The position numbers and the translations under genes were made by a program. From Pirellula sp. (lineage in GTDB: Bacteria > Planctomycetota > Planctomycetia > Pirellulales > Pirellulaceae), in NCBI GenBank assembly GCA_021300015.1, contig JAJTFB010000084.1:1-40716 (forward strand): a DNA stretch of 40,716 nt. Direction: 5' to 3'. Positions 20,761-40,675 of this stretch are shown here, in pieces. Position 1 is the first letter of the stretch. Every line of letters begins with the position of its first letter. The notes under the pieces were generated by a model. The model ran no database searches and was not told the origin of the DNA. It saw only the letters and a list, made by a program, of their open reading frames with translations.

Positions 20761-23700
20761 TGACTTTGCGCGATTTCTTCGAGTTTCTCCCAGGAGATCG
20801 AAGCTAGGCTGGCTTCTTTTCCAGGTCTTTGAACGCAAACGACCTTTCGAGTGTGTTTTTTCAGCAGCCCGATTTCCTTATTGGGGGTCACGAAGATTGG
20901 ATGCAGGCTGAAGATTCTTAGCGCTTCGATGATCCTCGTCGCGGCCGACGGAGAGCTTTTCGAGAACGCTTCATCGAGAACGACGGTCCCGTACAGTGGC
21001 CGAGTCGCAGCCGGAGGGCACAAGGCATAGCTCAATGAGGCCGTCAGGATGTGGCTGGCCATCAATTCCTTTTCGCCGCCGCTACCACTTTGTGACCCGG
21101 TGCGGGGTGGAGAGCGTTCAGCGGTCATTCGATCGACTTCGACGACAAAAAACTGCAATCGAAATCTTGGATCCAGAAGAGCCTTGGATCCTTGTAAACG
21201 GCGATTTTCACCTGCATCACGCAGGATCGCTACCATCTCTTGCAATGCTTTGAAGTGGCTCTGACCGCCATCGTCTTTCAAGGCAGCGTGCCGAACTTTT
21301 TGCATGGCGATATTGAGCGATCGAAGTCGTTCATCTTTCATTCTCTGAGGCAGTAGTTGCAGGTAGCGCCCAGAACGAAAATCGACTTTGACCAAGGTGT
21401 GGTTTAGCTCTGCGATCCGTTCCTCGATCGCATCGACCTCTTCGTCGATGCTAGCGAGCAATTGCGTGACCCCTTGGTCCGACGAGCGGTTGAGGTACTC
21501 CAGGAATCGCGTCCGTTTTTCAGGCAGCGCTTCCTCGGTCAAAACCCTTAGTGGCATTTTCCATTTTTCGCACAAGCTGTTGTTCGATATCTGCATCGCG
21601 GATGAGTTGTTCATCGAGTTGGGATTCGATCTCTTTGGCCAATCGTCTTTCGGATTCGATCAAGCGCTGCGGGGGGACCTCTGATTCGACCCTCAAGTGC
21701 TTGCTCGCTAGAGCTTCTTCATGATCCCCGAGACGCCCTTCCGAGCGTTTCCGAGCGTCCTCGCAAGCTTGTTCTGCCGAACAACGCTTGTCGTTGAATA
21801 CAGCGATTTCGGAGCGATGATCGGAGATCTTCTGGCGCAGCGTTTCGAGCTTATCGTTTTCATGTTCGTATTGCAATTTCGCGTGGCTCGTATCGGATTT
21901 CGGATCGAGTAGGCCTTCGAGGCGCAGGAGCGAACGCTGCATGTGCAACTCGGCGTTGGGCAGGTCGATCGTGGCGAAGTCCAGGTTGAGTAGAGCGTCG
22001 AGGATACGGAGGGTTTCCTCGATTTGCTTGAGTTTCAGTTGCGCCGATTGCACGGTTTGTTTTGCTGTTTGGGCCAAATGCGTTTCCTCCACGCATTGCT
22101 TAGCAAGCGCATCGAGTTGGTCCTTGTTATCGAACCCTGTCATCCAGTCTCGATCGAGTCTGCGTTGGTCTTGTTTCTCAAATTTCCCGTGCCGTCCGGA
22201 CATCATCCCTTCGATCGTCAGAGCGTTTTCGGTGATACTCAGTTCGTCGCTGGTCAGTACGCAATGCAGATCGCGAGCAGACAGCAGTCGCACAGCAGCA
22301 TCCTTGAGCGCATGGGGCTTGATGTTTAGCTTCTGGACATAACCGTCTTCGAAGAAGCTGACTCGTTGGGTGGTAGACTCTGCGGATTGAAGCCGAACGT
22401 GCAAGCGGTTATCGCGTTGATTGACCCAACGCAAAGCGTCTTGGATCCTGTTTGCTGGAACGAGGATGCGGAGGCGTTCGGAGCCGATGGCTCGTTCGAT
22501 CGCACCGCGCCAGGGTGCCTCGGAAGCTTTGACCTCGATCAGTTCGGCTAGGAAGGGAAGATCCGAATCCAAAAGCGACAATTCGGAAGCCAACTCAGAG
22601 CGAAATTCCTGGTACGGGATTTGGATATTCGATCCAGGTCGCTGCTTGACCTTGCGGATCGCATCGGTCAGTTCTTCGACGCGTTGTTGGTGGACTTGGA
22701 GCGTGGACATCGACCCGAGGGTCATCGATTGTTGCGCCTCGTATTGTACATGCAGGGCTTGCTGCTGCTTGCGGAGTTCAATTTGATTGGCTCGAAGCAT
22801 GTCTTCTGACAGATCGTCGTTCAATCCGAACCGCAAGACCATTTGGCGATACAGCGCCGCTTGTTTTTTCCGTTCGTCGACGAGTTTTCGCTGGGCAGCG
22901 ATGGTGTTTTCCAATTCACCGATGATGTTTCCACCGAGTTCCAAGTAACGTTCACGCAGCGAATCGACCTCGGATCGCGCCAGCGAGGCTTTCTGTTCCA
23001 TCTGGGTCAATTCTTGCTGGCCTTGGTCGATGATCCCCGAGAGTCGCAGAAACTCGGCTTCCCATTTCTGTTGGCTGATTCGAGCAAACCAGATCGGCAG
23101 AACTCGTTTGAGAATTCGGAGTTTCTCGGTTTTGCGTTGCGATTTCAGCAGCCTCTCGTATTCCTCAAGAACAGGCAGGAGCGATTCGCGTTGGCGCTCG
23201 GCCAGTTGCAGTTCGGCGTGAATGTCCGAGAGGTTATCGAATTCGGCAGCGACCTCGACGGCCCGGTCGAAAGCGGATCGATCCTCTAGGACCAGTTCGC
23301 GAAAAATTTCGTCAATGCTGTTGAGCTGTTTTAAGCCTGCGGCACGGTTTAGAAGGGTAAATGCGTTTTCGCCGACATCAAAGAACTTGCGAATCCGCTC
23401 AAGATAGGATCGTTTGCTTTCAAAGAACCTGAGATTGGCCGTTTCTCGCCCAACCTTGAGCAACTCGCGGATCCCGTCGTCGTGAAGCAACCGTAGCCAA
23501 ACGTCCAAGCTTTGGTCGGGAGCCATCGAAAAGACCCAACGCCGCTTCAAATCATCCGCGGCATTGCCAGTCCCCTCGGTCCAGAATATCCCAGCGATTT
23601 TGACCGTCTGCTTGCCCCCGACGTAGGTTGCGCAAATACCGCTGATGGTCTTGCCGGGCCGCGCGACCTCTTGGCGACCATCGGCACCATCGCCCCCCAA

Positions 23701-24027
23701 GACACCTCGTACGTATTCGATCAGTGTTCGATCGCTTTCGTGACCGCCGGTGGATGCAAGGTTGTAGCGAGGGGAGGCAACCAGCAGAGTCATCAGGGCA
23801 TCGACGAGCGTTGTTTTTCCACTGCCGGTCGGCCCGATGATCGCCGTGCCACGCGGATCGAAATCCGCTCGGTGCATCCCACGAAAGGGTCCCCAGTTGT
23901 AGACCTCCAGTCGGCTCAAAACAAACGAAGCCTCACCCTGGGCGATGGGCATCGCTTCGATATCCTCTGGGGATTGAATCTCTGCGGTTTTGGAGTTCGC
24001 CTCGGAGGTCTTGGCTCGCTGTGGCAT
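20757..24027 (-). pseudogene. jetC: Wadjet SMC-like ATPase JetC, interrupted by a frameshift
   Basis: The MukB-like ATPase of Wadjet, about 1,090 codons. The ATG at 24027 overlaps the jetB stop (TGATG) and follows AAGGAG. The first frame (to a stop at 21520-21522) holds the head-domain start, Walker A IIGPTGSGKTTLVDAL (~63-78), and long coiled coils. The second frame (open from before 21614 to 20757) holds the returning coiled coil, the ABC signature SGSGGEKELMASHI and Walker B VVLDEAFSKSS. The frames join between about 21520 and 21614 by a +1 shift, near T5 and T4 runs. The second frame has ATG codons but no good ribosome-binding site. The segment between LVRKM and LPEKRTRFLEYL also looks some 30 residues shorter than in JetC proteins I recall, suggesting a small deletion. 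Without both halves the ATPase cannot form. A sequencing error remains possible. Confidence 0.85.
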
Positions 24028-24752
24028 CAATCATCTCCTTGGTTTGTTGCAGTAGCCTTGGCTGAGTTCAGAACCGCAAGAAGAGCCGAGAGGGACTCCG
24101 GGTTGGCCAGATGCGCGATCAGAGGTCGAATGACGACTTCCTGTTTCGCGTCGACCTCTGAAACAATCCCATGCGTCTTGAGTTGCTCAAGCAGTTGCAG
24201 CAATCGATTTTCGTTTTTCGCATCGCTTCCGGTGTCGCCGAAGTACGTCAGGAACGTCGGTAGAAGTTCGTCGATCGAGAGTTTAGAGGTCGACTGGCCG
24301 ACTCCATACTCTTGCTCATGCATCGCAAAAGCTTGCCGTAGAATCGCAACCAACAGAGATTGCTCAAGGGTCAGTCGTTGTTTGCGGACCAGCGGATGGC
24401 TCCAGCCATCGAGTTCACTCGACTCGTCTAGTTCGGGTTTAGCGATCCGCAGGAAAGCCACCCCTCGATGCGAGTCGACATTGAGGGTTAGATCCAAAGG
24501 GGCGAGCGTTTGGTTGATCGCGTCGATTTGAACACGGACGCTACGGAATAGATCATGGCGTTGGCTTTCCTCGATGTAGCCTTGGCGAAGGAGTTCTTGA
24601 ACTGCGATTTTTAGCTCGCGCCGGATCGTTCCTGCATCAACGGTCTCGGAAGAGCCGATTGGTTCAGCGGGTTGCGAAGAAGAAATGGCTGGGGATTTTT
24701 GTGGATCGTCGTCTGGAGATTCACCGGCCAATCGATCAAAGATATTGTTCAT
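24027..24752 (-). CDS. jetB: Wadjet kleisin-partner subunit JetB (DUF4194, MukE-like)
   Basis: A 241-residue protein of the Wadjet SMC complex, equivalent to MukE and built of winged-helix domains that bind the kleisin JetA and DNA. The ATG at 24752 overlaps the jetA stop (ATGA), has a GGTGGAG site upstream and begins MNNIFDRLAGES, after which a low-complexity stretch leads into TIRRELKIAVQELLRQGYI. The later LEQSLLVAILRQAFAMHEQE and LQLLEQLKTHGIVSEVD segments are typical of DUF4194 proteins. The frame is intact and ends by overlapping the jetC start by one base. The call relies on position as well as on sequence. Confidence 0.82.
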   Translation of the reverse strand: MNNIFDRLAGESPDDDPQKSPAISSSQPAEPIGSSETVDAGTIRRELKIAVQELLRQGYIEESQRHDLFRSVRVQIDAINQTLAPLDLTLNVDSHRGVAFLRIAKPELDESSELDGWSHPLVRKQRLTLEQSLLVAILRQAFAMHEQEYGVGQSTSKLSIDELLPTFLTYFGDTGSDAKNENRLLQLLEQLKTHGIVSEVDAKQEVVIRPLIAHLANPESLSALLAVLNSAKATATNQGDD

Positions 24753-26148
24753 TCCAATGACTCCACCTTCAGATCTTCGACATCTTCGATTGCCATTTCC
24801 ACCCAAGGGACTTGGAACCTCGTGTCCCCATCGAGTGGGTCATGCAGATCGATCGACTGGGCTCCTTGGCCGAGTTCCAAACCGGCTTGTCGGGCCATGG
24901 CGAGCCAAAAGGAGAGCGTTTCTAGGTCGTGTGTAGGACGGATGGCTTTTGCCAATTGGCCGATGGTGAGTTTTTGGCCGTCTTGTTTAAGGATTTCCAA
25001 GGTGTTTCTGAAGACTGCCTCGCGATTCATGGCACGATAGGCTTGCCAGAACTCGTCCCCCATGCCAGCCGGATCCGCATAGTTTTCATCGAGTTCGAGT
25101 TGACTCACCGAGTCACTTTCGATTTGTTTCGGGAGTAGGCGCTCGATGAGAGGTAGATTACCCGAGGAGATTGCAATCGGAGGCAACGGGCTATCGGTCC
25201 TGCGAATTTTTTGCGATTGCCAATCGAGTTCAAGGGCGGCTTGAAAGATCTCTTGGAGCAGGGCCCCGACGCGCAGTTGTTCGTTGGCCAATCCTGACTT
25301 GAGAAAACCGCGGACGTCGCGTTCGCTGTGCGATCGCGCTTGGATGACTCGTTCGGATTCATAGACGAGTCGCGAGACGAGTTGCTTGAGCTCTGCTTTT
25401 TGCTTTCTGGAAAGCGCTTTGTCGGAATTCCCATTTTCGAGGATTGACCGGATTCGGGACTTCATGTCATGGAGCTCCGAGGACTTGACGAGCTGAGCGT
25501 AAAAGCTCTCGAAGACTTGGCCTTCGACGGTCTGGACGAGTTGTTCGTGTCCGTTGAGGAGTTCGTCGACGATTTGTCCTCGGTTTTGGTTTTCCGAGAT
25601 GATCCGTTGCCTCAGTTGGCGATCGGCTTGGCGATAGGAGTCCTCGACACGTCGAAAGTCGGCTTGAAGGCTCATAGCCAACTGGTACACCTCTCGAATC
25701 CCCTCTTCGGCTTGTTTCCCATCGAGCACATCGAACACGCCGGTTCGGACCGCTTGGAGTTCGATAGCTAGAAGTTCCATACGAGCTTGGATCGCACGCT
25801 CTCGGTCCTTTTGGCTGCGGCTGAGTTGGACTTCGAGCAACTCGATGGCACGTTGAACAGTAGCCAGCCGCGATGCGGTGGAGGTCATCGAATGGTCTTC
25901 GAGCGAGTCGAGGAATAGCAACGCTCTTTGAAATGCATCGGTGGCAAGAATTTTGCCTCGTTGGCATAATCGGCGAAGACCGTAGCGAGACGTTCGACGG
26001 CCTCCTCGAGGACTACGCCCCCTGGGCTCGAGTCGATCAAGCTCTTGAGGCTTGCGAGAATCAGCGGGCCCTTGGGGGAAGCTAGTAAGGACCAGGCCGG
26101 ATGGTTTCGACGGAGCGAAATGTATTTCGATACGGTTTCTCGCGCCAT
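24749..26148 (-). pseudogene. jetA: Wadjet kleisin subunit JetA (DUF3375), interrupted by a frameshift
   Basis: The MukF-like kleisin of type I Wadjet. The ATG at 26148 starts MARETVSKYISLRRNHPAW, matching the N-terminal winged-helix segment of DUF3375, and stays open to a stop at 25885. From about 25950 the homologous protein continues in the -1 frame: KILATDAFQRALLFLDSLED, then TASRLATVQRAIELLE, a long coiled coil, and a C-terminal winged helix to 24749. The crossover is at an A4 run on the coding strand (T4 at 25951-25954 on the plus strand). One added A, or a -1 slip on AAAA, would restore a protein of ~465 residues, normal for JetA. The second part has no start codon with a good ribosome-binding site near the junction. 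This is either a true frameshift, a homopolymer sequencing error or, less likely, programmed slippage. Confidence 0.85.
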
Positions 26149-26224
26149 GAAATTACGATACGAACAAGGTAGATATCGGTCTTGTGGTGGTTTTTCGGTC
26201 TCCTATCAGATTCCTACAGATGCG

Positions 26225-26238
26225 TGTTGATTTCAACA
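26225..26238. promoter_or_regulatory. Palindrome upstream of jetA (possible operator)
   Basis: TGTTGA-TT-TCAACA is a perfect 6-bp-arm palindrome about 77 bp before the jetA start. On the minus strand it contains TTGAAA, usable as a -35 element. It lies in the only intergenic gap (26149-26299) from which the whole jetABCD unit can be transcribed, so a repressor site is conceivable. The arms are short. Confidence 0.3.
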
Positions 26239-26299
26239 GATCGCTTAAGGGATAGCCGATTTTTAGGTCGTTTTCAGAGAAATTTCTCGATCCGAGGGA

Positions 26300-26722
26300 T
26301 CATTCCCAGCGTTGGCCTCGCCCCTGTTTCTTCTCACCGGTAAGCTTCTTTTCGGACAATCGCCGACGCCTTGCCCCAGCACTGGGCTTGGTCTCCTTGC
26401 GCACGACAACAGGCTTCATCGCTTCGAGAACCAAACCCCGAAGCAGATCGCGGCAAGCTTGCAAGTTCCGCGACTGCTCGCGATGGACTTGGCAATGGAT
26501 CTTCAAGAAACCTTCATCGTTGATCCTCGATGCAGCCATGGCCTTCAGACGCATCAGAGCCATCGGAAAAAGGGCCTGGGTTTGATTCAAATCCCAGATC
26601 AACGTCGCCTTGGAGTTGACTTTATTGACATTCTGACCTCCAGGCCCACCGCTGCGAGAATAAACCGCTTGCAGTTCGGTTGCAGGAATCGTCAAATAGT
26701 GGGTAATGCTAAGGTCTTCCAT
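26300..26722 (-). CDS. arfB: Peptidyl-tRNA hydrolase ArfB (ribosome rescue factor)
   Basis: A 140-residue release-factor-like hydrolase that frees stalled ribosomes by entering the A site and cleaving peptidyl-tRNA. The catalytic GGQ is at residues ~28-30 in SGGPGGQNVNKVNSKATL, the standard RF-1 domain context. The C-terminal tail is strongly basic (RRRRLSEKKLTGEKKQGRGQ), as required for insertion into the mRNA channel. The short length and lack of a stop-codon recognition domain distinguish it from RF1/RF2. It stands alone, divergent from the beta-propeller gene. Confidence 0.93.
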   Translation of the reverse strand: MEDLSITHYLTIPATELQAVYSRSGGPGGQNVNKVNSKATLIWDLNQTQALFPMALMRLKAMAASRINDEGFLKIHCQVHREQSRNLQACRDLLRGLVLEAMKPVVVRKETKPSAGARRRRLSEKKLTGEKKQGRGQRWE

Positions 26723-26745
26723 GGTTCTTCATAAGGTAACGGTTC

Positions 26746-28236
26746 ATGCGAGTATTGGCGACAAGTCCGATCCGAATTTTCAGCCCCAGGCTCGCGCTCG
26801 CGGTGCTGGGAATCCTCGGCTCGCTGGCCATTTCTTGGGGACCTCAAAACGCCCTGGTCCAAGAGACTCTCGGCCAAGAGACTCTGAGCCAAGAGTCCGA
26901 TCCAACCGAGAAGCTCTCGTTATGGACACGCACCAAAGGGTCAGACTGGCCTCGAATGCTCGGGGTTCACTACGATTCGAAAAATTCAGAAACAGGGATC
27001 CTGACCCAATGGCCCAAGGATGGACTTCGAATCGTCTGGCATGAAAAAATTGGGACCGGATACGGAAACGGAGTCGCGGCCCTTGGCCGTTGGCTTCAAT
27101 TCGATCGCCATGGAAACGTTGAAAGACTCTCATGCTACGAAGCCCAAACCGGCAAGTTCCTCTGGAAGTGGGAGGCAAGCGTCGTCTACCAAGACGCCTA
27201 CGGATACAACGATGGACCTCGATCTAGCCCGATCGTCGATGGGCGGTATGTGTATGTCTACGGTGTGGCCGGCAGGATTGCGTGCGTCGATATCGCAACC
27301 GGCAAAGAGCTTTGGCAGAGAAACCTCAGCAATGACTACAGCGTCGTACCAAACTTCTTCGGGGTTGGAGCCAGTCCCCTGGTTTACAAGGACTTGCTCA
27401 TCGCCATGGTCGGCGGAAGTCCCAAGCGAGGTTTCTTTTCCCGTTCTGCAACGATCAACGATATGCCCAGTGCTAAGCCCGATGGAACGGGGATGATCGC
27501 ATTGGACAAACGGACCGGCAAGGAGGTCTATCGAGTTGGGAATTATCTAGCCAGCTACTCAGCGCCGATCATCGCGAAACTGCACGGCGAGGATTACTGC
27601 GTTAGTCTCATGCGAGAGGGATTGTTGATTTTCCGCGCCAAGGACGGAACGGGAGAACAGTTTTTTCCGTTTCGGGCCGCAACGCTCGAAAGTGTCAATG
27701 CAGCCAGTCCGGTGGTGCACGACAATAAGATCTTCATCTCGGAAGCCTACGAGATCGGCAGCGCAATGCTGGAGTTCACCGGCTCGGAGCTTAAGCTCCT
27801 TTGGCGCGACGAAGGAATGCGATCGAGTCAATCGATGCGAACCCACTGGACCACACCCCTACTGCATGAGAATCGCCTGTATGCCAGCAGCGGACGCAAC
27901 CCGACCGATACCGATATTCGCTGCATCGAGCTTCAAGGAAACCAGCCCCCAAAAACCGTCTGGAGCCAACGCAATCGCGATCGTGGTACTGGCATGATCG
28001 TCGATTCGCACTGGCTCTGGCTCGGCGAAAACGGCAAATTGCATCTCCTGAGGCTCGGTTCCGACACGCACGAGGTCGTCGCGGAGATGGACCTCCAATT
28101 GAAACCGCAACCAGGCTCGAAAGAACCTATATTAAACCCCCCGAGCTGGGCCCCTCCGGTCCTCTCGCATGGTCTGCTGTTTGTCAGAGGAAGCGACCGA
28201 ATCATCTGCTTGGAACTCATCCCTGAATCGAATTGA
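26746..28236 (+). CDS. Secreted PQQ-type beta-propeller protein
   Basis: A 496-residue exported protein. The N-terminal basic residues precede a hydrophobic segment (LALAVLGILGSLAISWG, ~17-33), followed by a small repeat LVQETLGQETLSQES. The mature part opens DWPRMLGVHYDSKNSE, a relative of the WPxWRGxxxDGxS start of planctomycete PQQ-repeat proteins. It then shows blades such as CYEAQTGKFLWKWEA and CVDIATGKELWQRNL, each with the xxTGKxLW pattern. These proteins are usually scaffolds and often lack PQQ. The gene ends 9 bp before the EutBC fusion, so the two are co-transcribed. A role in handling the same substrate is inferred only from position. Confidence 0.85.
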   Translation: MRVLATSPIRIFSPRLALAVLGILGSLAISWGPQNALVQETLGQETLSQESDPTEKLSLWTRTKGSDWPRMLGVHYDSKNSETGILTQWPKDGLRIVWHEKIGTGYGNGVAALGRWLQFDRHGNVERLSCYEAQTGKFLWKWEASVVYQDAYGYNDGPRSSPIVDGRYVYVYGVAGRIACVDIATGKELWQRNLSNDYSVVPNFFGVGASPLVYKDLLIAMVGGSPKRGFFSRSATINDMPSAKPDGTGMIALDKRTGKEVYRVGNYLASYSAPIIAKLHGEDYCVSLMREGLLIFRAKDGTGEQFFPFRAATLESVNAASPVVHDNKIFISEAYEIGSAMLEFTGSELKLLWRDEGMRSSQSMRTHWTTPLLHENRLYASSGRNPTDTDIRCIELQGNQPPKTVWSQRNRDRGTGMIVDSHWLWLGENGKLHLLRLGSDTHEVVAEMDLQLKPQPGSKEPILNPPSWAPPVLSHGLLFVRGSDRIICLELIPESN

Positions 28237-28245
28237 CCAAAGACT

Positions 28246-30561
28246 ATGAGACCTCCGCGCATCGGACTGACACGACGTAAGATATTGCAGACTGGAATGT
28301 TTGCTGGCATGGCAAGCTGCATCGGTCTGGACGCAGCAGCACAGGACCCGCCCAGTGGACCCTCGGTGCAGAATTTGCCAGAAGGCTTGGAAAACGAGGA
28401 TCTCATCGCCTACGTCCACCGCATCGCAGGAGGCTGGGATGTCGATTGGTACCGCCGCGTTCTGGGGGCAGCCAACGAATACAAAGAAGGGGACGAGATC
28501 CTTGGAGTGTCGGCTCGTACACCCGCTGAGCGGCAATTGGCTCGCAAACTCCTTGAGCAAACCACCTTAGAGCAGATCGATTCCCATCGACCCTTTGAAG
28601 ACAAAATGCTCTCGGCGCTTGGGTTGGCACAAGCCAAAACGCAGACCCAACAGATCCAAGCCTGGAAACTGGCAGAGCTCAAGGCGTTTCTACTCGAGCA
28701 AAGCGAGGAGGAAATCCACGCGATTCGCCCTGGATTGTCGAGCGATTCGATCGCATGCGTGGTCAAGCTCATGAGCAATCAGGAGTTGATCGAAGTCGGC
28801 CGAAAGGTATTCAATCCGCTTCCTGGCTCTCAGCTAGGATCCCAAGGGTACATGGGTGCGCGAATCCAACCAAATTCGCCAACAGATCATCCCGATGATA
28901 TTCGCTGGCAGGTATTCAATGCATTCGCATATGCTGTTGGCGATGTTCTTGTGGGAACGAATCCCGTGTCGAGCGAACCGGACTCCGTCGCCCTGGTCGA
29001 ATCAACGCTTAAAGAGATCCTCGATACCTTCGAAATCAGTTCGACAATTCCTCACTGCGTTTTGGCGCATATAGACATTCAAGCGGCATTGGAACACTCG
29101 CAACCCGGGTCGACCGCGCTTTGGTTTCAGAGCATCGCAGGATCCGATGCAGCCAATGCAACATTCGACGTGACGGTCGATAAACTTTTGCAACACGCAA
29201 AAAACAAACAGGGTAAGTTCGGTTTGTATTTCGAGACGGGCCAAGGAGCCGATTTCACCAATGGCCATGGGTTTGGGACCGACATGATCATCCATGAGTC
29301 TCGCAAATACGGACTAGCGAGAAGCTTGAGCCAAACATTGACTCTGTCCAGGCAACAGCGGGGTGAAAGTTCCGAGCCATGGGTTCACCTCAACGACGTT
29401 GCTGGTTTCATCGGACCAGAAGTATTTCGCAATCGAGAACAGCTCGTGCGATGTTGCCTCGAGGACATCGTCATGGGTAAATTGCACGGATTGATGATCG
29501 GACTGGATATCTGTACGACTCTCCACATGGATGTGACACTCGATGATTTGGGATGGTGCATCGATCAAATCATGCCCGCGAATCCCGGATATTTGATGGC
29601 CTTGCCAACCCGCATCGATCCCATGCTCGGATACCTGACGACCGGCTACCACGACCATGTTCGGATCCGCGAAAAATTTGGTTATCGTGTCAACGATGCG
29701 ATGTGGGACTTTTATAAGCGACTAGGCGTGATCGATCCGCAAGGACAACCTACCGAACATTTTGGCGATCCAGCTTGGGTGTATCTAGCCTACTGCCGAC
29801 GACGCTCGGATGAGCGATCCGACGGAGAGATTCTCGCAGAGGCCAAGGATCGCATCGCACAGGTTCGCCAACGAGGAGTATTTATCTCCGAAGGCTACGC
29901 AGAGGATATATCCGAGCTTCCCAAAGATTTAGACCTGCACATCCATCGAATTTACGAAGACGCAAAGAAATGCATCTGGGCGGAACTACCCGAAGGCTTC
30001 GAAACGACAATCCAAGGAGCCGTTCCGATACAAACCCTTTCGGTCAATCGCAATGACTACATCCTACATCCTGTTACCGGTGAGCAATTGCATCCGGATT
30101 CCGTTCGCAAGCTGGAGCGATTAAGGGACCAACACGCCGATCGCTACGACACAATCTTGGTTTTATCCGATGGACTCAATGCATTGGCCAACAGTTCAAG
30201 CCAGCAGGCGAAAGAGCTCATCGATGATCTGCGAAACGAGCTCGCTAAAGACGGCAGAAAATTGGCTCCTGAAGTATTGGTCATCCGATCCGGACGCGTT
30301 CGGGCCGGCTATCGGATTGGCGAGAGAATGTTTCGCTCCAGAGAAGGCCGGATGCAGATCCTGCATATCGTCGGGGAGCGACCCGGCAGCGGACATCGCA
30401 CGCTATCGATCTACATCACCAGTGCCCAGGGAGAGGACTGGAGCGTCGAATCGAAGGTCGACCACAACATCACTCGGGTCGTATCGGGCATCGCGCACAC
30501 GGCACTTGAGCCGAGCCTTGGCGCCCAAGCCGCTGCGAGGATTCTTCGCACTTTTGTTTAA
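28246..30561 (+). CDS. eutBC: EutB-EutC fused ethanolamine ammonia-lyase with twin-arginine signal
   Basis: A 771-residue fusion of the large and small subunits of the adenosylcobalamin enzyme that converts ethanolamine to acetaldehyde and ammonia. The EutB part (~45-530) keeps the substrate residues of the E. coli enzyme: R206 and Q208 in ARIQPNSPTD, N239 in VGTNPV, E330 in FETGQG, D421 in GLDICTT. VAGFIGPE and MGKLHGL are also typical. The EutC part (~560-771) shows ILVLSDGLNA, VLVIRSGRVRAGYRIGE and HIVGERPGSG. The N-terminus TRRKILQTGMFAGMASC is a good Tat signal, with a possible lipobox at Cys25. Usual EutB/EutC are separate and cytoplasmic, often in a microcompartment; no other eut gene is here. 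The fusion is clear, export is predicted, and ethanolamine as substrate is inferred from the conserved residues. Confidence 0.85.
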   Translation: MRPPRIGLTRRKILQTGMFAGMASCIGLDAAAQDPPSGPSVQNLPEGLENEDLIAYVHRIAGGWDVDWYRRVLGAANEYKEGDEILGVSARTPAERQLARKLLEQTTLEQIDSHRPFEDKMLSALGLAQAKTQTQQIQAWKLAELKAFLLEQSEEEIHAIRPGLSSDSIACVVKLMSNQELIEVGRKVFNPLPGSQLGSQGYMGARIQPNSPTDHPDDIRWQVFNAFAYAVGDVLVGTNPVSSEPDSVALVESTLKEILDTFEISSTIPHCVLAHIDIQAALEHSQPGSTALWFQSIAGSDAANATFDVTVDKLLQHAKNKQGKFGLYFETGQGADFTNGHGFGTDMIIHESRKYGLARSLSQTLTLSRQQRGESSEPWVHLNDVAGFIGPEVFRNREQLVRCCLEDIVMGKLHGLMIGLDICTTLHMDVTLDDLGWCIDQIMPANPGYLMALPTRIDPMLGYLTTGYHDHVRIREKFGYRVNDAMWDFYKRLGVIDPQGQPTEHFGDPAWVYLAYCRRRSDERSDGEILAEAKDRIAQVRQRGVFISEGYAEDISELPKDLDLHIHRIYEDAKKCIWAELPEGFETTIQGAVPIQTLSVNRNDYILHPVTGEQLHPDSVRKLERLRDQHADRYDTILVLSDGLNALANSSSQQAKELIDDLRNELAKDGRKLAPEVLVIRSGRVRAGYRIGERMFRSREGRMQILHIVGERPGSGHRTLSIYITSAQGEDWSVESKVDHNITRVVSGIAHTALEPSLGAQAAARILRTFV

Positions 30562-30791
30562 TCCGGGGTTACTCAAGGCAACCGAGGAACCCTCTAGGAT
30601 AAGAAGGTCAGCACGCCCCCGCCTGAACCTGCTTCGATTCGTCGCATTGCATTTTAGCCTTTTCCGGAGGATTCCATTGGATCGATAGGCCTCGGCTTCG
30701 ATAAAATGAAGGGATAGCACACGATCCAGAAGATCGCCCAGAAGATCGCTTGCGGCAAATCACTCGAACCTAGATAGGGAGGGTAAGGACC

Positions 30792-32063
30792 ATGCTGCGA
30801 ATGCTCCGTTTTTGGTTAGGAGCCACGATTTTATCGGGCTCAACAGCTTACGATGCGCTCGGGCAGGATAGCTTCGACCTGCCTCCCATCCGATACTCCG
30901 AGAGTCTTTCAAAGGATCCTGTCGCTCTCTTGGGGCGAAAAATACAACGCGGCGAACTCGTTCTACCTCAGGACTCCCAGTTCGGCGTATTGCCCGGTTT
31001 GCTCAAAGAACTCAACGTGCCCGTCGAGTCCCAAGTGCTGGTGTTCTCCAAGACGAGTTTGCAGATCCATAAGATCTCTCCGTCGAACCCGCGAGCTCTG
31101 TATTTCAACGATTCGGTTTACGTCGGCTATGTTCCGGGCAGTTCCATCCTAGAGCTAGCGGCCAACGACCCAGACTTGGGCGCCGTTTTCTACACGTTGG
31201 ATTTCGCGCCCCCCAAAGAAGCTAGCCAAGGGGTTCAATTGGTGCGAGATCGAGGCCAGTGCCTCAGTTGCCATGCAACAAGCCGCACCGAAAACGTGCC
31301 TGGATACCTGGTCCGCTCGATTTATCCAGATGCCTCCGGCAGGCCTCGCACTGGGACAAGCAGTTACACCACCGATTACCGAAGCCTTTTCCAGACACGT
31401 TGGGGTGGCTGGTACGTCACCGGTACGCATGGACAAATGCGCCACCTGGGAAATGCTTTTGCTTTGGACCGAAGCGACCCTCAAAAGATGGATCTCGAAG
31501 CGGGTGCAAACCGGTCGGAATTGCCCTCAAGGGTTCAGCGCGAACTTCATCTTCAACCCCATAGCGACCTGGTCGCACTGATGGTACTCGAGCACCAGAT
31601 TCGCGTCCATAATCTGATCACCAAAGCCAATTACGAAGCCCGGCAAGCCATCGCGATGGATGTTTCGATGAACCAAGCTCTCGGACGAGACTCAGGACAT
31701 CGCAGCGAAAGCACACAAAGACGCATTCAAAGCGCTGCAAGCTCGCTAGCCGATGCCATTTTGATGCGAAACGAATCGCCCCTTGAACAAGTCGTGCAGG
31801 GAACCAGTTCCTTTGCCGAGGTGTTTGCTAGCCTAGGACCCAGGGACTCGCAGAATCGCTCGCTCCGACAGTTCGATCTACACACACGGCTGTTTCGCCA
31901 TCGACTTTCGTACTTGATCTACACCCCAGAGTTCCAAGCGTTACCCAAAGATATCCTAGGACCGCTCCGAGAACATCTCCAAGAAACGCTTCGGACCGAC
32001 GAGTATCGAGCCGAACGAGAGATCCTCGAAGCTACCTTGCCAGGATGGCTATCGGCTAGCTAG
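30792..32063 (+). CDS. Secreted c-type heme protein (single CxxCH)
   Basis: A 423-residue exported protein. The N-terminus MLRMLRFWLGATILSGSTAYDALGQ is a signal peptide, and GGGAGGGT-like purines precede the ATG. One heme c motif, CLSCHATS, lies at residues ~157-161, in a context RTENVPGYLVRSIYPDASGRP. Before it is a domain with ALYFNDSVYVGYVPG and after it an Arg/His-rich helical part (LEHQIRVHNLITKANYEARQA). This layout recurs in planctomycete proteins of unknown function; an electron-transfer or oxidase role is inferred from the heme. It follows eutBC after 230 bp in the same direction and is convergent with the MFS gene. Confidence 0.75.
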   Translation: MLRMLRFWLGATILSGSTAYDALGQDSFDLPPIRYSESLSKDPVALLGRKIQRGELVLPQDSQFGVLPGLLKELNVPVESQVLVFSKTSLQIHKISPSNPRALYFNDSVYVGYVPGSSILELAANDPDLGAVFYTLDFAPPKEASQGVQLVRDRGQCLSCHATSRTENVPGYLVRSIYPDASGRPRTGTSSYTTDYRSLFQTRWGGWYVTGTHGQMRHLGNAFALDRSDPQKMDLEAGANRSELPSRVQRELHLQPHSDLVALMVLEHQIRVHNLITKANYEARQAIAMDVSMNQALGRDSGHRSESTQRRIQSAASSLADAILMRNESPLEQVVQGTSSFAEVFASLGPRDSQNRSLRQFDLHTRLFRHRLSYLIYTPEFQALPKDILGPLREHLQETLRTDEYRAEREILEATLPGWLSAS

Positions 32064-32066
32064 CGA

Positions 32067-33479
32067 TCACTCGGGCAATGGCCGATCTTTGGTCTCGGGA
32101 AGGAACACAAGTGCGATCAGGCCGATGAGGAAAAAGACACTCATGTAGGTGCATGCATCGCGGAAGGCTTGGAGCTTGACCTCCGCCGTCGCACCTTGAG
32201 GTATTAACCCATTTTGCAACGCCCCGAGCGTGATCGGTCCCGAGGCGGCCACATAGCGGCCGACGTTGTAACAGAAACTCGTGCCGGTGCTCCTTAGTCG
32301 CGTCGGGAACAACTCGGGCAGATAGACCGCAAAGCCAGCAAAGAGAGCCAATTGGAAAAAACCCATTACGCCGCTAAGCCAGATCGTGGACCAGGTGCCA
32401 TCGAAGGTCCGGAAAAACAGAATGGTCGCTCCCATCGCGGCGATGAATCCGATGGCGAACGCTTTCTTGCGACCGATGCGTTGGCACAAGTAGGTGAAGG
32501 CAAGCATTCCGAAAAACGCACCGGTGTTTTGGATGATGCCATTGATCCCGCGAAACGTCGACTGTGCGGATTTGATCACCGCAGGATCGACGTCGGGATT
32601 CTCCTTTTTCATATTCAATTCGATCACTCCATTGATCAGCTCGGGAGCGAAAAAACCGATCCCCCAAACACCCACAACTCCCGCGATGCACAGAAGCAAA
32701 CCACCGATGGCCGACTTCCGCCATGTGGAATCCCCGAGCAGTTCGCTGTAAGATCCAAACTTCACCCCCGTGAGCTTTCCTTCCTCTCGAGCCCTGACCC
32801 ACTTCTCAGGCTCTTTGAGTCGCCATTGGATAAACACGCACAAGAATGCGGGCAAGGCTCCAAAGAGGAACATGATTTTCCAGCCGAGGCTCGGGTCGAT
32901 GGTGCCTGAAGCACCGAGTTTGCCGACGGCGATGCTCATGAGCCCAGCAGTGATATTCCCAATCGCCGAAAGGGCCTGAAGCAATCCTAAGGCGGGTGTT
33001 CTAGAGCGCTCGGGCAGACTGTCGGCGACCAAGGCGACCGCCAATCCAAACACTCCGCCGACCCCCATACCGGTGATGAAACGGTAGATAAAAAAGTCGA
33101 CCCAGCCAGTCGAAAACGCACTCAATCCCGTACAAAGCGAGTACATCAGCACGGTGATTGCCAAGGTCCGAGCGCGTCCGATCCGATCGCCGATCGCTCC
33201 AAAAATCAGACCTCCAGTCGCCCAACCGATCATGAAGACCGAAGTCGAATACGCAGCATACTGGATAACAATCGACATCTCCGTCGTTTTGGGAAGGAGC
33301 GCCTTGAGTGCATCCTGACGAGCCAGGATGAAGACTTGTTGGTCCAGGCAATCGAAGACCCAAGCCATCGAGGCCATGGCAAAGACGAACCAGTGGTAGG
33401 ACGTCAAACCTTTCCACCATGGTTGCTGGCCCTCGGATTGCTGGTCCAGGTCGGCGGAGGAGGTAGGAGTATAACCCAA
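32067..33479 (-). CDS. MFS metabolite transporter (sugar/acid:H+ symporter type)
   Basis: An inner-membrane permease of ~470 residues with 12 expected helices. The first is around SYHWFVFAMASMAWVFDCLD, followed by motif A GGLIFGAIGDRIGRARTL between helices 2 and 3, and a second half with a related loop, YLCQRIGRKKAF. The DCLDQQ at the end of helix 1 resembles aromatic-acid/sialate-type symporters of the metabolite:H+ family. The start is uncertain: the TTG at 33479 has a weak GGGA site upstream, a TTG at 33536 has none, and longer versions would overlap the PQQ gene. The substrate is unknown. It follows the 33539-34903 gene on the same strand with a 59-bp gap and is probably co-transcribed. 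Confidence 0.82.
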   Translation of the reverse strand: MGYTPTSSADLDQQSEGQQPWWKGLTSYHWFVFAMASMAWVFDCLDQQVFILARQDALKALLPKTTEMSIVIQYAAYSTSVFMIGWATGGLIFGAIGDRIGRARTLAITVLMYSLCTGLSAFSTGWVDFFIYRFITGMGVGGVFGLAVALVADSLPERSRTPALGLLQALSAIGNITAGLMSIAVGKLGASGTIDPSLGWKIMFLFGALPAFLCVFIQWRLKEPEKWVRAREEGKLTGVKFGSYSELLGDSTWRKSAIGGLLLCIAGVVGVWGIGFFAPELINGVIELNMKKENPDVDPAVIKSAQSTFRGINGIIQNTGAFFGMLAFTYLCQRIGRKKAFAIGFIAAMGATILFFRTFDGTWSTIWLSGVMGFFQLALFAGFAVYLPELFPTRLRSTGTSFCYNVGRYVAASGPITLGALQNGLIPQGATAEVKLQAFRDACTYMSVFFLIGLIALVFLPETKDRPLPE

Positions 33480-33538
33480 AAAACAGGTCCCGTTCGATTC
33501 ACGGGCTCTGTCCTTACCAAAGTCACTTTTTGCCAAAG

Positions 33539-34903
33539 TTACTTTTTGATCGCGTAGAGAGCTTGGTAGGACCGGATGTAGAGGACTCCGTCGGCGACCA
33601 CCGGCGATGCTGTGATCGCTTCGCCCATCGGGATCGTCGAAACGATTTGGAAATCCCTGCCGGCCTTGACCACTGTGCAATGGCCGTCATTGGATGCGAA
33701 GTAGATATGTCCATCCGCATACGTGGGACTCGAGCGATGCTGGCCAGTGTAGGTTCGTTGGAAGTAGATTTCCTCGCCTGTTTGATGATCCAAACACTGG
33801 AGCTTGCCATCCTTGTGCAATACATACACAAGTCCATCGACAACCAAGGGGATCGAGACATCGGGTGTGCGTGGTAGGTTCCAAGCCACGACATCCGACT
33901 TTTCAGAGCTGTTGCCCTGCAAGGACGCGTTGACCTTCAGTGCCACCATCGGACCCTCCTTAGCCGTCGGCAGGATGATCGAGCCGGGGATCACCAGCGG
34001 GGATGCGACGAAGCGAAAGGTGGGATCATTCTGTTTCGGATTGATTTTCGTCGGCCCATTGAGCTCACCGAATCGCCACAACTCCTTGCCGTCGGCAAGC
34101 TGGTGACCGGTGGTGCAGTCGGCACCGTGTACGACGAGAAATTCCTGTTTCCCATCCCGATAGATAAAAGGGGATGCATACGAGTGCTTGCACTCGAATT
34201 CGGCTTGGGTCACCCGGTCGATCGACCAGATCGTATCGCCGGTTTTCTTGTCGAGTTTGATAACCTTTCCCGTCCGGGTGTTGTCATCGCGGCGCATCGG
34301 ACCATGGAGCAGTTGAAGGTAAAGCGCCTCTCCATCGAGCACCGGAGTGCTGGTCATACCGAATTGAATGTCGAGTTTGCCATAACGTTCGTTCACGTCG
34401 ATCTTCCAAACCGGTTGGCCATCGACGGTAAAACAAGCTAGGATGCCAGTTCCGAAGAAACACCAAACATGCTTGCCATCGGTGCTCGGGGAAGGAGATG
34501 CCGAGTTGCCCTCGCCAGCCCGGGCGTCTTGATTGCCCGATCCGACCTTCTGCTGCCACAACGGCTTACCATCCTTGGTGCTCACAGCCATGAGAACCAA
34601 ATCGTCTCCTTGGGCACTGGTAAGAAAAATCCGTTCGTTCCATACCACGGGCGTCGCTCCAGCTTGGCCTGGCAACTCGCACCGCCACAGAACGTTCTCC
34701 TTGGTAGTCCACTGGGTTGCGATGTTTTTTTCATTCGATACCCCATCGTTCTTAGGTCCACGCCACTGCGGCCAGTTGTCGGCCAATGTGTCGCTGATCG
34801 TCCCACAAGCCACCACGGTGCTGAGGAACATGCTGGAGATACGGACGGCTTTCATCGATCGTTGCATAGGAGATTTGCTCATGTTCATCAGACTTATGCT
34901 CAT
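33539..34903 (-). CDS. Secreted PQQ-repeat beta-propeller protein
   Basis: A 454-residue exported protein. Several ATG codons are possible; MKAVRISSMFLSTVVACG (from 34855) looks like the actual signal peptide core, so the true start may be 34855 or 34882. The mature protein begins DNWPQWRGPKNDGVSNEKN, the hallmark opening of planctomycete PQQ-like repeat proteins. Blades follow with VSTKDGKPLWQQKVG, KLDKKTGDTIWSIDR, CLDHQTGEEIYFQRT and a closing YIRSYQALYAIKK, about seven in all. Such proteins typically act as periplasmic scaffolds without catalysis. It lies upstream of the MFS gene on the same strand and is divergent from the amylase gene. Confidence 0.85.
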   Translation of the reverse strand: MSISLMNMSKSPMQRSMKAVRISSMFLSTVVACGTISDTLADNWPQWRGPKNDGVSNEKNIATQWTTKENVLWRCELPGQAGATPVVWNERIFLTSAQGDDLVLMAVSTKDGKPLWQQKVGSGNQDARAGEGNSASPSPSTDGKHVWCFFGTGILACFTVDGQPVWKIDVNERYGKLDIQFGMTSTPVLDGEALYLQLLHGPMRRDDNTRTGKVIKLDKKTGDTIWSIDRVTQAEFECKHSYASPFIYRDGKQEFLVVHGADCTTGHQLADGKELWRFGELNGPTKINPKQNDPTFRFVASPLVIPGSIILPTAKEGPMVALKVNASLQGNSSEKSDVVAWNLPRTPDVSIPLVVDGLVYVLHKDGKLQCLDHQTGEEIYFQRTYTGQHRSSPTYADGHIYFASNDGHCTVVKAGRDFQIVSTIPMGEAITASPVVADGVLYIRSYQALYAIKK

Positions 34904-35056
34904 CACACAAGACGTCTTTAGACTAGGGGGTTATCGCGAGGGGAAGAGACGGGGCAGGGTGTCGGCTAGGTTATTCGGCTCGCCGACGGCATCTAGTATA
35001 ATCGGTCCAGTGGGTTTTTGTGCGTCGGTTGCATCTCCAATAGTTCCCAGGTTTTC

Positions 35057-37177
35057 ATGTCTCAAAAATATAGGGCCTTGGGCCCACGGATCTGCCGCTC
35101 GCAAAAATTGGTTTTGCTGATCGCTAGCTTGATCTTGCCCATGCAAGTGCAAGTGCAAGCCCAAGCCCAATCCCAATCCCAATCCCCAAGCCGAGCCGAA
35201 TCGGCGAAGGATTCCGAGCCCAATCCGCAACCTCTCGAGGATCGTTTGGTCGTCACAAAGGTCGATCCCCCTTCCTGGTGGACCGGTTCGACCGCCAATC
35301 CCATCCGGTTGCTCCTAACAGGACAGGGTCTCAGCAAGGATCTTGTCTTGACTGCGGATCGCCATGGACTGCAATTTACGAATCTCAAGGCCAGTCAGAA
35401 CGGGCATTACCTCTTTGCCGATCTGCATATCGCCCCGGATTGCAAACCCGGCCCGGTCCAATTCGAATTGTCCCAATTGTCCCAACAGAACCCGACGACG
35501 AACCCGCAACGAACGGCCTGGACTTGGGAAGTCCTCGCCCCCCCGGCACACCGCCCCCAAGGATTCGGCCCCGAGGACTTCATCTATTTCCTCATGCCAG
35601 ACCGTTTCTGCGATGGCAATCCTGCGAACAATCGCACGACAAAATCACCAGAGCTCTACGACCGAAACAAATCGCGGTTCTATCACGGTGGTGATATCCA
35701 AGGCATCGCGAGCAAACTCGATTACATCCAGAGCTTAGGAGCCACCGCGATATGGACGACTCCTATCTACGACAACAATGACGCTCCAGACCTCAAAGAA
35801 CTCCATCCTGAGCCCGGTCAATCCGAGCGTGTGCCGACCACAGGATACCATGGCTACGGTGCAATCGATCTTTATGCGGTCGATGAACATTTCGGAACGC
35901 TCGGGGAACTCCAATCATGGATCGCCCAATCGCACCAAAGGGGCCTGAAGGTCATCCAGGATCAAGTCGCAAACCACACCGGTCCCTACCACCCTTGGGT
36001 CCTAGATCCACCGACTCCAACGTGGTGGAACGGCACGGCGGCTAAGCATCCGAAGAACAATTGGCAAAAATGGACGGCGATGAATCCAAGAGCCACCCGA
36101 CAAACCCAACAACTGAACCTCGATGGATGGTTCGCTGATGTGCTTCCAGATCTAAACCAGGACGATCCCGAAGTCGCCAAGTACTTGATCCAACACTCGA
36201 TCTGGTGGCTCGGTGTGGCCGGCTATGATGCGATCCGTATGGACACCCTACCCCATGTGCCTCGCCGTTTTTGGGAGCACTGGGCCAGCGAGGTCAAACG
36301 GGAATTCCCAGATACCAAAGTCCTCGGCGAACTGTACGACTCAGACCCAGTGCTGGTTGCCTACTACCAAGGTGGCCGGCGGGGTCACGACCAAATCGAT
36401 ACGCAAATCGATACCCTTTTTGACTTTGGGCTTTTCACTCCGATCCGAAACGCATTTGCCAAGGGCAAGGCACTGCGGGAGGTCCATCAGATGTTCGCCA
36501 GGGACTGGATCTATGCCGATGCGAACCGTTTGGCAACGTTCATCGGTGTCCACGACATGCCCCGTTTCATGCATGAAAAAGGTGCCACGCTCCAAGGGCT
36601 CCAATCGGCGATGACCCTGATGATGACCAGCCGCGGTACGCCAATCCTCTACTACGGCGATGAATTGGCCATGCCCGGCGGAGAGGACCCAGACAATCGA
36701 AGAGATTTCCCCGGCGGCTTTCCAGGGGATGCTCGCAATGCATTCGACCCAACAGGTCGCGAACCGTCCGAACAGGCCGTATGGAAACATATCGCAAATC
36801 TCGGCGCTTTACGTAAGAAATATCGAGCACTTGCAGTAGGTGAGTCGCTCGATTTGCTCGATGCCGAACAGCAATATGCTTATGCACGAGTAAGCGATCG
36901 CCAGACGCTCATCGTCGTATTGAACAACGATACCGAGCCTGCCACGATCGAGTTCGATACCCAGAGATTGCCCAGCCAAGCGATCCAAAAAGGTTGGTCG
37001 TTTCAATGCGACGATCTGTTAGGTGGATCGAATCGGCTGACAGTCCAGGTCGAAGCCTCCAACCTCGCCCCAAGTCTTCCCGACACGCAAAAGCCCCAAA
37101 ACAACGCTGGGGCTCAAGCCGGTGCGAGCCTGACGCTACCGGCACGCACCAGCGCGGTGTTTCTCCTCCCAGAGTGA
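35057..37177 (+). CDS. Secreted GH13 alpha-amylase / neopullulanase-type glucanase
   Basis: A 706-residue exported glycosidase acting on alpha-1,4-glucans or cyclodextrins. The signal peptide has a core of KLVLLIASLILPMQ (~17-30). An N-terminal Ig-like domain (~60-160) resembling that of cyclomaltodextrinases precedes the TIM barrel (~170-620). Catalytic residues are visible: nucleophile D396 in YDAIRMDTLPH, acid/base E425 in VLGELYDSD, H499-D500 in FIGVHDMPRF, and region I DQVANHTG (~302-309). The C-terminal beta domain ends SAVFLLPE. Bacteroidetes SusA-type neopullulanases share this layout. A small tandem repeat lies just after the signal peptide. The last ~90 bp contain a hairpin that could be a terminator for the convergent gene. 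Product specificity cannot be read from sequence. Confidence 0.92.
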   Translation: MSQKYRALGPRICRSQKLVLLIASLILPMQVQVQAQAQSQSQSPSRAESAKDSEPNPQPLEDRLVVTKVDPPSWWTGSTANPIRLLLTGQGLSKDLVLTADRHGLQFTNLKASQNGHYLFADLHIAPDCKPGPVQFELSQLSQQNPTTNPQRTAWTWEVLAPPAHRPQGFGPEDFIYFLMPDRFCDGNPANNRTTKSPELYDRNKSRFYHGGDIQGIASKLDYIQSLGATAIWTTPIYDNNDAPDLKELHPEPGQSERVPTTGYHGYGAIDLYAVDEHFGTLGELQSWIAQSHQRGLKVIQDQVANHTGPYHPWVLDPPTPTWWNGTAAKHPKNNWQKWTAMNPRATRQTQQLNLDGWFADVLPDLNQDDPEVAKYLIQHSIWWLGVAGYDAIRMDTLPHVPRRFWEHWASEVKREFPDTKVLGELYDSDPVLVAYYQGGRRGHDQIDTQIDTLFDFGLFTPIRNAFAKGKALREVHQMFARDWIYADANRLATFIGVHDMPRFMHEKGATLQGLQSAMTLMMTSRGTPILYYGDELAMPGGEDPDNRRDFPGGFPGDARNAFDPTGREPSEQAVWKHIANLGALRKKYRALAVGESLDLLDAEQQYAYARVSDRQTLIVVLNNDTEPATIEFDTQRLPSQAIQKGWSFQCDDLLGGSNRLTVQVEASNLAPSLPDTQKPQNNAGAQAGASLTLPARTSAVFLLPE
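35143..35186 (+). repeat. Hexanucleotide repeat at the signal-peptide junction of the amylase
   Basis: CAAGTG, CAAGCC and CAATCC units follow one another in two or three copies each, giving alternating VQVQ-AQAQ-SQSQ residues at and just after the predicted signal-peptide cleavage site. The six-base unit preserves frame, so length changes would alter only the spacer before the mature domain. Confidence 0.85.
37092..37114 (-). terminator. Candidate terminator for the SAM_HAT_C-like gene, inside the amylase 3' end
   Basis: On the minus strand AGCCCCA and TGGGGCT pair across a nine-base loop and are followed by TTTTGCG. It lies ~107 bp beyond the stop codon of the 96-aa gene and within the last codons of the convergent amylase. 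The U-tract is short, so function is uncertain. Confidence 0.35.
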
Positions 37178-37220
37178 TCTCAGTTGATCTCCGGTTACCC
37201 CCAGTCATCTCCGGGCTTGG

Positions 37221-37511
37221 CTACCAACAAACCTCGACACTCGCACCGGATCGTACACTCAACATAATCGAAGCAGAGTCGTCGACCAAATGAAGCTTCA
37301 GCGGACTCTCCCCATCGGCGATCGCAATAAGGGTCATGGCAGGTTGCCCGTGGTCGTTGCCAAAAATCCCAACCGTCTCGTGCTCCTGGTCAACCTTCAC
37401 CCGAGTCTCGCTCGAACGAGGGATGTCCCTCCAATCCTTGGGCGCGATGTCTGTGATCAAGTCTCCGTTGGCACCAACCTCAACGACCTTTCCTTGAATG
37501 CGTCTCGACAC
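37221..37511 (-). CDS. Stand-alone SAM-hydroxide adenosyltransferase C-domain-like protein
   Basis: A 96-residue protein starting at a GTG (37511) with AGGAG eight nt upstream. GKVVEVGANGDLITDIAP near the start matches the GRVxxVDxFGNLITN strand of the C-terminal beta-barrel of SAM hydroxide adenosyltransferases and the related fluorinase. PAMTLIAIADGESPLKLHLV and SGASVEVCW fit the later strands of that domain (usual ending ...GDPVxV). The N-terminal catalytic domain is absent, so the known hydrolysis of SAM to adenosine is not expected from this chain alone; a binding or regulatory role is inferred. The domain call is from pattern only. The gene lies between the amylase and the MCE gene. Confidence 0.6.
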   Translation of the reverse strand: MSRRIQGKVVEVGANGDLITDIAPKDWRDIPRSSETRVKVDQEHETVGIFGNDHGQPAMTLIAIADGESPLKLHLVDDSASIMLSVRSGASVEVCW

Positions 37512-37652
37512 GTAAACTGCTCCTGGGATGTGACTCTAGCGGCAAATTCGACTCGGACCGAGCATTGCAAGTTTGTTTACAACGTCATCATTCTATACAA
37601 AGCTGTCAACGGTGGGGATGCTTCGAAAGATTAAGAAACCCTCATTGAACCC

Positions 37653-39152: not shown

Positions 39153-39303
39153 CGATGGTATTCTCGGTTTTCAACGCTTCCGGGGTTCTGCCAACAGTCC
39201 AAGGATTGTACGATAATCCTTATCAAAAAACTCGATGCAAAAAACGACCTAGCCCCGAGACCCCAGGCCCGAGACCGCCGATAACCACAGGATAGCCATC
39301 TTC

Positions 39304-39534
39304 ATGACATTCAACGACATGGCAGCTAACAATATGCCCGCGATCCATATGCCCCCGATCCGTGCTTTGGCACCTCTGGCACACGCCGGACACGGACCGA
39401 TCGACGCAAGTCATCCGGCCCACTTCCTGACAGCTCCCGAGCACTCCGTGGTGATCCTCGCCATCCTTGCCTCGGTCGCCTGCCTAGTGTGGCTAGCCGT
39501 CCGACGAGCCTATCGGATTTCGAAACCTACCTGA
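39304..39534 (+). CDS. Tiny membrane protein with HAGHG motif
   Basis: A 76-residue protein with a His-rich segment LAHAGHGPIDASHPAHFLT (~25-43) followed by one membrane helix (VVILAILASVACLVWLAVRR). Small proteins with HAGH...PxH before a terminal helix occur in other bacteria, often of unknown role; metal binding by the histidines is possible. The ATG at 39304 has AGGA about 11 nt upstream. Its 3' end overlaps the SIMPL gene by 25 bp in convergent orientation. Whether it is expressed is uncertain because it is short and isolated. Confidence 0.55.
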   Translation: MTFNDMAANNMPAIHMPPIRALAPLAHAGHGPIDASHPAHFLTAPEHSVVILAILASVACLVWLAVRRAYRISKPT

Positions 39535-40562: not shown

Positions 40563-40675
40563 GATGGAGCCTCCAGTACCACTCGGGAGTGTCGAAAAAG
40601 CCACTCAGTACATGATACAACGAAGCCATCGGCCGATGGCCGACAAAGCCCCGAAATTCGCCCGCACCCCTCTGC

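Follow-up and report, generated by a model that had tools for sequence, protein, structure and literature searches.

The open reading frame at positions 28246 to 30561 of the window, by which we mean the whole 40,716-nucleotide stretch of Pirellula DNA that was analysed, probably encodes an exported, single-chain ethanolamine ammonia-lyase that belongs to a clade of fused EutB-EutC proteins, as judged from comparisons of sequences and predicted structures. The fusion itself is already known: the 2012 genome paper on Pelobacter carbinolicus calls its pair of eutBC genes 'an unusual fusion', and the description of the lyase in that paper does not mention an export signal (PMC3543383). An earlier, sequence-only reading of the window had taken EutBC to be known as separate proteins, and must be corrected on this point. 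The features of the predicted protein are these:

28246..30561, + strand: fused EutB-EutC chain with a putative N-terminal export signal, an ORF of 771 aa (Pfam, NCBIfam, Foldseek)
28246..28347, + strand: predicted signal peptide region, residues 1-34, with TRRKILQ (9-15) as the Tat motif, then Cys25 as a possible lipobox and AAAQD (30-34); pN/pS ~0.16-0.21
28450..29757, + strand: EutB domain with the substrate and radical site, residues 69-504 (Pfam; best Foldseek match 3abo chain A)
28861..29508, + strand: span containing R206, Q208, N239, E330, F388 and D421, unchanged in 56/56 fused chains
29758..29946, + strand: residues 505-567, which link the two Pfam domains, at the position of the E. 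coli EutC N-terminal region
29947..30552, + strand: EutC domain, residues 568-769, with the SDGL, GRV and GERPG motifs kept

That one chain joins EutB and EutC, as had been read from the sequence, is borne out by the exact 771-residue frame and by Pfam matches above the cut-off for both domains (437.5 bits against a cut-off of 25 for EutB; 89.9 bits against 25.8 for EutC). The first half passes the NCBIfam model of an EutB subfamily (569.8 bits, cut-off 554) and the second lies far under the cut-off of the NCBIfam EutC equivalog (67.8 bits, cut-off 230); solved EutC chains are matched by this half in both profile and fold comparison. An AlphaFold2 model built on 25 aligned fused chains has a pLDDT of 80.6 and a pTM of 0.82, with residues 1-44 and 452-465 below 50, and a Foldseek search with the model gave E. 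coli EutB (3abo chain A) as the top match and found EutC chains as well. The identity to E. coli EutB is ~31%. In the alignment, R206, Q208, N239, E330, F388 and D421 correspond to R160, Q162, N193, E287, F329 and D362 of E. coli EutB, which we take to be its substrate-binding residues; these include the five (all except F388) that the sequence-only reading had named as key residues, and all six positions are invariant in the 56 fused chains aligned. When joined EutB and EutC sequences are aligned, the N-terminus of E. coli EutC pairs only with the linker of the fused chains; EutC residues 1-19 have a targeting role in encapsulation by the Eut microcompartment (PMC3299773). The window's chain is therefore like E. 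coli EutBC (3abo) in its two domains, their folds, the substrate residues and the EutC motifs, and unlike it in being a single chain, in its predicted export signal and in having a linker in place of the EutC N-terminal region; the genetic setting also differs from that of the E. coli enzyme, in that EutA has no match in the genome and the contig carries no shell genes. The unchanged substrate residues, together with growth of P. carbinolicus on ethanolamine (PMC3543383), support ethanolamine chemistry for the predicted enzyme.

The N-terminus of the window's chain, MRPPRIGLTRRKILQTGMFAGMASCIGLDAAAQD, presents a twin arginine, then a weakly hydrophobic stretch, then an AxA-like end. An in-frame stop lies 12 nt ahead of the ATG of the fused gene. 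Within the first 70 residues, in-frame start codons occur at residues 1, 14, 18 and 22 (inside the signal) and at residues 41, 44 and 48; the last three are GTG/TTG codons, at which a shorter chain might in principle begin. In comparisons with the relatives L031 and L033, codons 1-34 gave pN 0.026 with pS 0.161 and pN 0.111 with pS 0.536, respectively, from small counts of nonsynonymous changed sites (2 to 8.5). The corresponding values are pN 0.137 with pS 0.261 and pN 0.306 with pS 0.750 for codons 35-50 (pN/pS 0.41-0.52), and pN 0.022 with pS 0.219 and pN 0.076 with pS 0.517 for core codons 51-360 (pN/pS 0.10-0.15). These values agree with a signal that is translated and constrained and has a looser stretch after it, with codons 1-34 apparently under purifying selection. 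Cys25 is a possible lipobox cysteine; it is present in the window's chain, L031 and L033 and absent from L030 and the 76%-identical L032, and L034 and L058 have a cysteine at a similar position. A TatC gene is present in the same genome (178 bits). The proposal that the lyase is exported, perhaps by Tat into the periplasm, gains support from this gene, from the constrained Tat-type signal and from the retention of an export signal across the clade, to which we now turn.

We recognize 56 distinct fused loci, which come from Planctomycetota, Rhizobiales, Desulfuromonadales and relatives (including Tharpella), Bacteroidota and Acidobacteriota, among others. With kinds assigned from score, length and tree, EutB was found in 30 of 392 genomes of the phylum sample (the window's own included), as 12 canonical, 16 window-type fused and 2 of another fused kind, and a scan of genome contigs yielded 40 further window-type fused loci. 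Canonical EutB is missing from 38 of the 39 fused-bearing genomes searched. The fused form is patchy in its occurrence, since among 385 alphaproteobacterial genomes sampled only the chosen centre carries it, while 27 have canonical EutB. Plasmids of Sinorhizobium carry the fused lyase. Database labels hide this fused, apparently exported form: a copy on pSymA of Sinorhizobium meliloti is labelled just EutB. Of the 20 plasmid records listed, 3 use this plain label, and in the one inspected the annotated gene begins upstream of the signal. A second, separate family of fused EutB-EutC proteins without an export signal is represented by L019 and L023, and probably also by L160, L161 and L162; L019 and L023 have Ala where E. 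coli has Asp362, and their substrate may differ. The genome of L019 has an EutA-type gene immediately upstream of the gene for this second kind of fusion.

A home-made test for export signals, which is permissive in that 27% of shuffled fused N-termini and 5% of shuffled canonical ones pass it, assigned a signal-like start to 55 of 57 fused rows (after dropping a duplicate, 54 of 56), to 2 of 38 canonical EutB and to 0 of 2 proteins of the other fused kind. A strict Tat pattern, defined as RR followed by a hydrophobic stretch without charges, occurs in 39 of 55 fused rows, in 0 of 38 canonical EutB and in 8 of 214 background ORFs. Shuffled fused N-termini would be expected to give it in 0.16 of 55 rows, and its frequency in the fused chains is therefore more than chance; combined with TRRKILQ, the weakly hydrophobic stretch and AAAQD in the window's own chain, this result upholds the earlier assignment of a Tat-type signal. 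The 16 rows that fail the strict pattern comprise nine with Sec-like starts (Desulfuromonadales, Tharpella and relatives, L066 and L067), three from Bacteroidota with RK- or lipobox-like starts and two (L027 and L032) with near-miss RR starts, all as judged by eye, as well as L024 and L028, which are fused chains without a signal. Within one Desulfuromonadales order, 18 distinct fused chains were inspected by eye and every one has a Sec-like start; 3 of these were already in the set of 56, and 5 more listed chains lie outside the 18. AxA-like ends recur, again by eye, in many of the fused-chain signals.

In a tree of 81 EutB rows, to which signal states (none, Tat, Sec-like or lipoprotein-like) were assigned by hand, the fused chains form a single group with support of 100/100, and 53 signal-bearing rows form a single group with support of 85/97 that is present in 87% of bootstrap trees. 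Given canonical EutB as the root, L028 and L024 branch first. The minimum number of changes on the tree is one for the presence of a signal and at least four for the four signal states. It would appear that the signal was gained once, after the fusion, and that its type later shifted between Tat, Sec-like and lipoprotein-like forms. The strongest evidence that export matters, and is selected, is that the export signal persists on the tree while its type changes. The branches between fused and other EutB are long, at 2.13 changes per site to one side of the midpoint and 1.69 to the other.

If the lyase acts outside the cytoplasm, ethanolamine, for example from the breakdown of phosphatidylethanolamine, would be split there to acetaldehyde and ammonia, which might diffuse inward to be used as carbon and nitrogen. 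Fusion of EutB to EutC would make the enzyme exportable as a single unit and would fix the subunits at 1:1 around cobalamin. The benefits might be that no microcompartment is needed to keep aldehyde and radical chemistry away from the cytoplasm, and that charged ethanolamine need not be imported. For the Tat lineages, including that of the window, loading of the cofactor before export would be a natural option; a Sec-type chain should cross the membrane unfolded, and its cobalamin would therefore be inserted outside the cytoplasm. Export of the folded enzyme with its cofactor, as had been proposed from the sequence, would be only one option, since the Sec-like relatives imply loading outside, and the clade offers a direct way to tell insertion of adenosylcobalamin ahead of export, in the Tat lineages, from insertion beyond the membrane, in the Sec lineages. 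We know of no exported adenosylcobalamin radical enzyme, and if the export reading is true, the lyase would be the first to our knowledge. The lack of such a precedent, and the need for a supply of adenosylcobalamin outside the cytoplasm, count against this reading. A further counterpoint is that the acetaldehyde-capable neighbours in relatives, and phosphoketolase, are of normally cytoplasmic kinds.

In Desulfuromonadales, some of their relatives and one acidobacterial MAG, the gene for the fused EutBC comes after those for a porin-like protein and, often, a solute-binding protein, and before that for a multi-pass membrane protein. The latter, which is ~270 aa long (L055:10241-11071, L043:10478-11299, L066:10337-11152 and relatives), is present in 12 of 46 stretches examined and is followed by ABC genes in 9 of the 12; the other three are L059, where the contig ends at that place, and L156 and L157, which are second copies. 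Neither Pfam nor NCBIfam has a family that matches the L055 copy, and NCBIfam has none that matches the L043 copy. The best NCBIfam matches of the L055 ABC set are a corrinoid ATPase and a B12 permease, all under the curated cut-offs, and the top NCBIfam match of the L055 binding protein is a non-corrinoid family. Five fused loci have genes for aldehyde ferredoxin oxidoreductase nearby. The stretches fetched for rhizobial loci contain a match to zinc alcohol dehydrogenase in 18 of 20 and to phosphoketolase in 12 of 20. A more far-reaching interpretation, which we regard as possible though rather doubtful, is that the clade consists of adenosylcobalamin radical enzymes whose work outside the cytoplasm takes the place of a microcompartment, that the Sec-type apoenzyme is loaded, and perhaps reloaded, in the periplasm, and that the conserved porin-like, multi-pass membrane and corrinoid-like ABC partners form an extracytoplasmic unit for cobalamin supply or recycling.

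The N-terminal segment might instead be an uncleaved membrane anchor, or be skipped by way of an internal start (GTG, residue 41), leaving the enzyme on the cytoplasmic side like other EutBC. The in-frame GTG/TTG codons at residues 41, 44 and 48 would permit the second of these, and the normally cytoplasmic kinds of the potential acetaldehyde-using neighbours in relatives, together with the two early-branching fused chains without a signal, would agree with either; yet codons 1-34 are tighter than codons 35-50, AxA-like ends recur, and the signal persists on the tree despite its changes in type. An anchor facing the cytoplasm would, moreover, leave the conservation of the twin arginine unexplained, and we consider a cytoplasmic-side enzyme unlikely.

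An exported chain might also have changed its job, to the binding or handling of cobalamin or to another amino alcohol in place of ethanolamine splitting, as could be suspected from the long branches that separate fused from other EutB, from the low score of the EutC half against its curated cut-off and from the corrinoid-like transporter genes that adjoin in several lineages. Such a change seems very unlikely to us given the six invariant substrate residues, at a site which, as the Ala at Asp362 in the second fused family shows, can drift. Its improbability is also indicated by P. carbinolicus, which grows by splitting ethanolamine or choline and has both of its reported lyase genes fused, although the authors suggest that one of the two may act on choline (PMC3543383). 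This organism has no eutA, and its eutBC cluster includes genes for an aldehyde ferredoxin oxidoreductase and for a transporter related to corrinoids (PMC3543383). In a genome whose gene order matches this description, and which we infer to be that of P. carbinolicus, both fused copies start Sec-like. EutBC1 and EutBC2 of P. carbinolicus would accordingly resemble the window's chain in the fusion of large and small subunits, and differ from it in being two copies within a cobalamin gene cluster (PMC3543383) and in having a Sec-like signal rather than one of Tat type.

The reading of an exported, cobalamin-dependent lyase is supported by the window's own genome, which encodes a cobalamin adenosyltransferase besides TatC. 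One protein with a B12-binding domain is also present; because the assembly is ~81% complete, absences from it are weak evidence. Within that assembly EutA has no match, and BMC shell matches occur on contigs 22 and 52 only, the window being all of contig 90, so that the earlier remark that no microcompartment or reactivase gene is nearby stands. The BMC locus on contig 52 holds genes for DeoR, acetate kinase and a class II aldolase, a set that presumably resembles the sugar-type microcompartment of planctomycetes and not Eut, and a microcompartment link for the fused lyase was rejected on the basis of this gene content. The absence of EutA was likewise set aside as evidence for export, as it does not discriminate: in the 12 planctomycete genomes with canonical EutB, EutA is unmatched in 11 and weakly matched, below the cut-off, in 1. 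Short EutA matches of ~19-37 bits in other genomes look like cross-matches of the ATPase fold. Five rhizobial genomes (G407, G408, G424, G429 and G430) have two EutA-type genes separated by ~27-28 kb; the contig that holds them is not the one with the fused lyase. No cobalamin riboswitch was found in the window, and the idea of one ahead of the fused gene was dropped, the single example in nine relatives scanned (L066) preceding a TonB-receptor gene. The sole cobalamin riboswitch found in the window's own genome (L083; contig 108, 49572-49856, minus strand) seems to precede the gene for a DUF4465 protein with a PEP-CTERM tail, which we assume might be a surface cobalamin-binding protein.

Among known systems, reductive dehalogenases involve no adenosyl radical and have a fold different from that of ethanolamine ammonia-lyase. 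PceA and RdhA are like the window's chain in combining a corrinoid enzyme with a Tat signal, and reach the periplasm folded; their chemistry is different and they contain iron-sulphur clusters (PMC6095959). The breakdown of ethanolamine is described as a process inside the cell, often housed in microcompartments, in part because acetaldehyde is toxic and volatile (PMC5821096). The Eut microcompartment and the window's lyase would share the first reaction and the aldehyde to be handled (PMC5821096), and differ in the predicted export signal on the enzyme and in the location of the shell genes, which are on other contigs only. If the lyase has indeed moved outside, this would represent a different solution to the toxicity and volatility of acetaldehyde. 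In a literature search whose coverage excludes preprints and most subscription papers, no title or abstract opening among the matches listed describes an exported ethanolamine ammonia-lyase, and no paper was found that contains both 'ethanolamine ammonia-lyase' and 'twin-arginine'.

In the window itself the fused gene is flanked by two genes:

26746..28236, + strand: PQQ_2-type beta-propeller protein, upstream, its gene separated from the fused one by 9 nt; by eye, the N-terminus is hydrophobic and signal-like
30792..32063, + strand: 423-aa protein, downstream, with a single haem-c motif of the CXXCH form at residue 157 (CLSCH); by eye, the N-terminus is signal-like

The downstream protein has no Pfam or NCBIfam match. 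Neither gene is widely kept: of the 14 other planctomycete loci, the three closest share the PQQ_2-type neighbour, and one contains a match to the CXXCH gene, which spans 222 of its 423 residues. A role of these cytochrome c and PQQ neighbours as partners in acetaldehyde oxidation gains no support from this limited conservation. The counterpart of the CXXCH gene (L031:10508-11278) is a 256-aa ORF, and the gene may be shortened in L031. A Pfam scan of ten proteins of the window (24749-40604) detected no cobalamin or acetaldehyde protein apart from the lyase. Elsewhere in the window, positions 19576-25921 on the minus strand hold a Wadjet (JetABCD) defence locus, in which JetC is represented by two ORFs (836 and 285 aa) where L031 and L032 carry one of ~1,110 aa, and positions 18153-19502 encode a protein with a repeated PERPEM motif and, judging from its translation, a dockerin-like stretch near its start.
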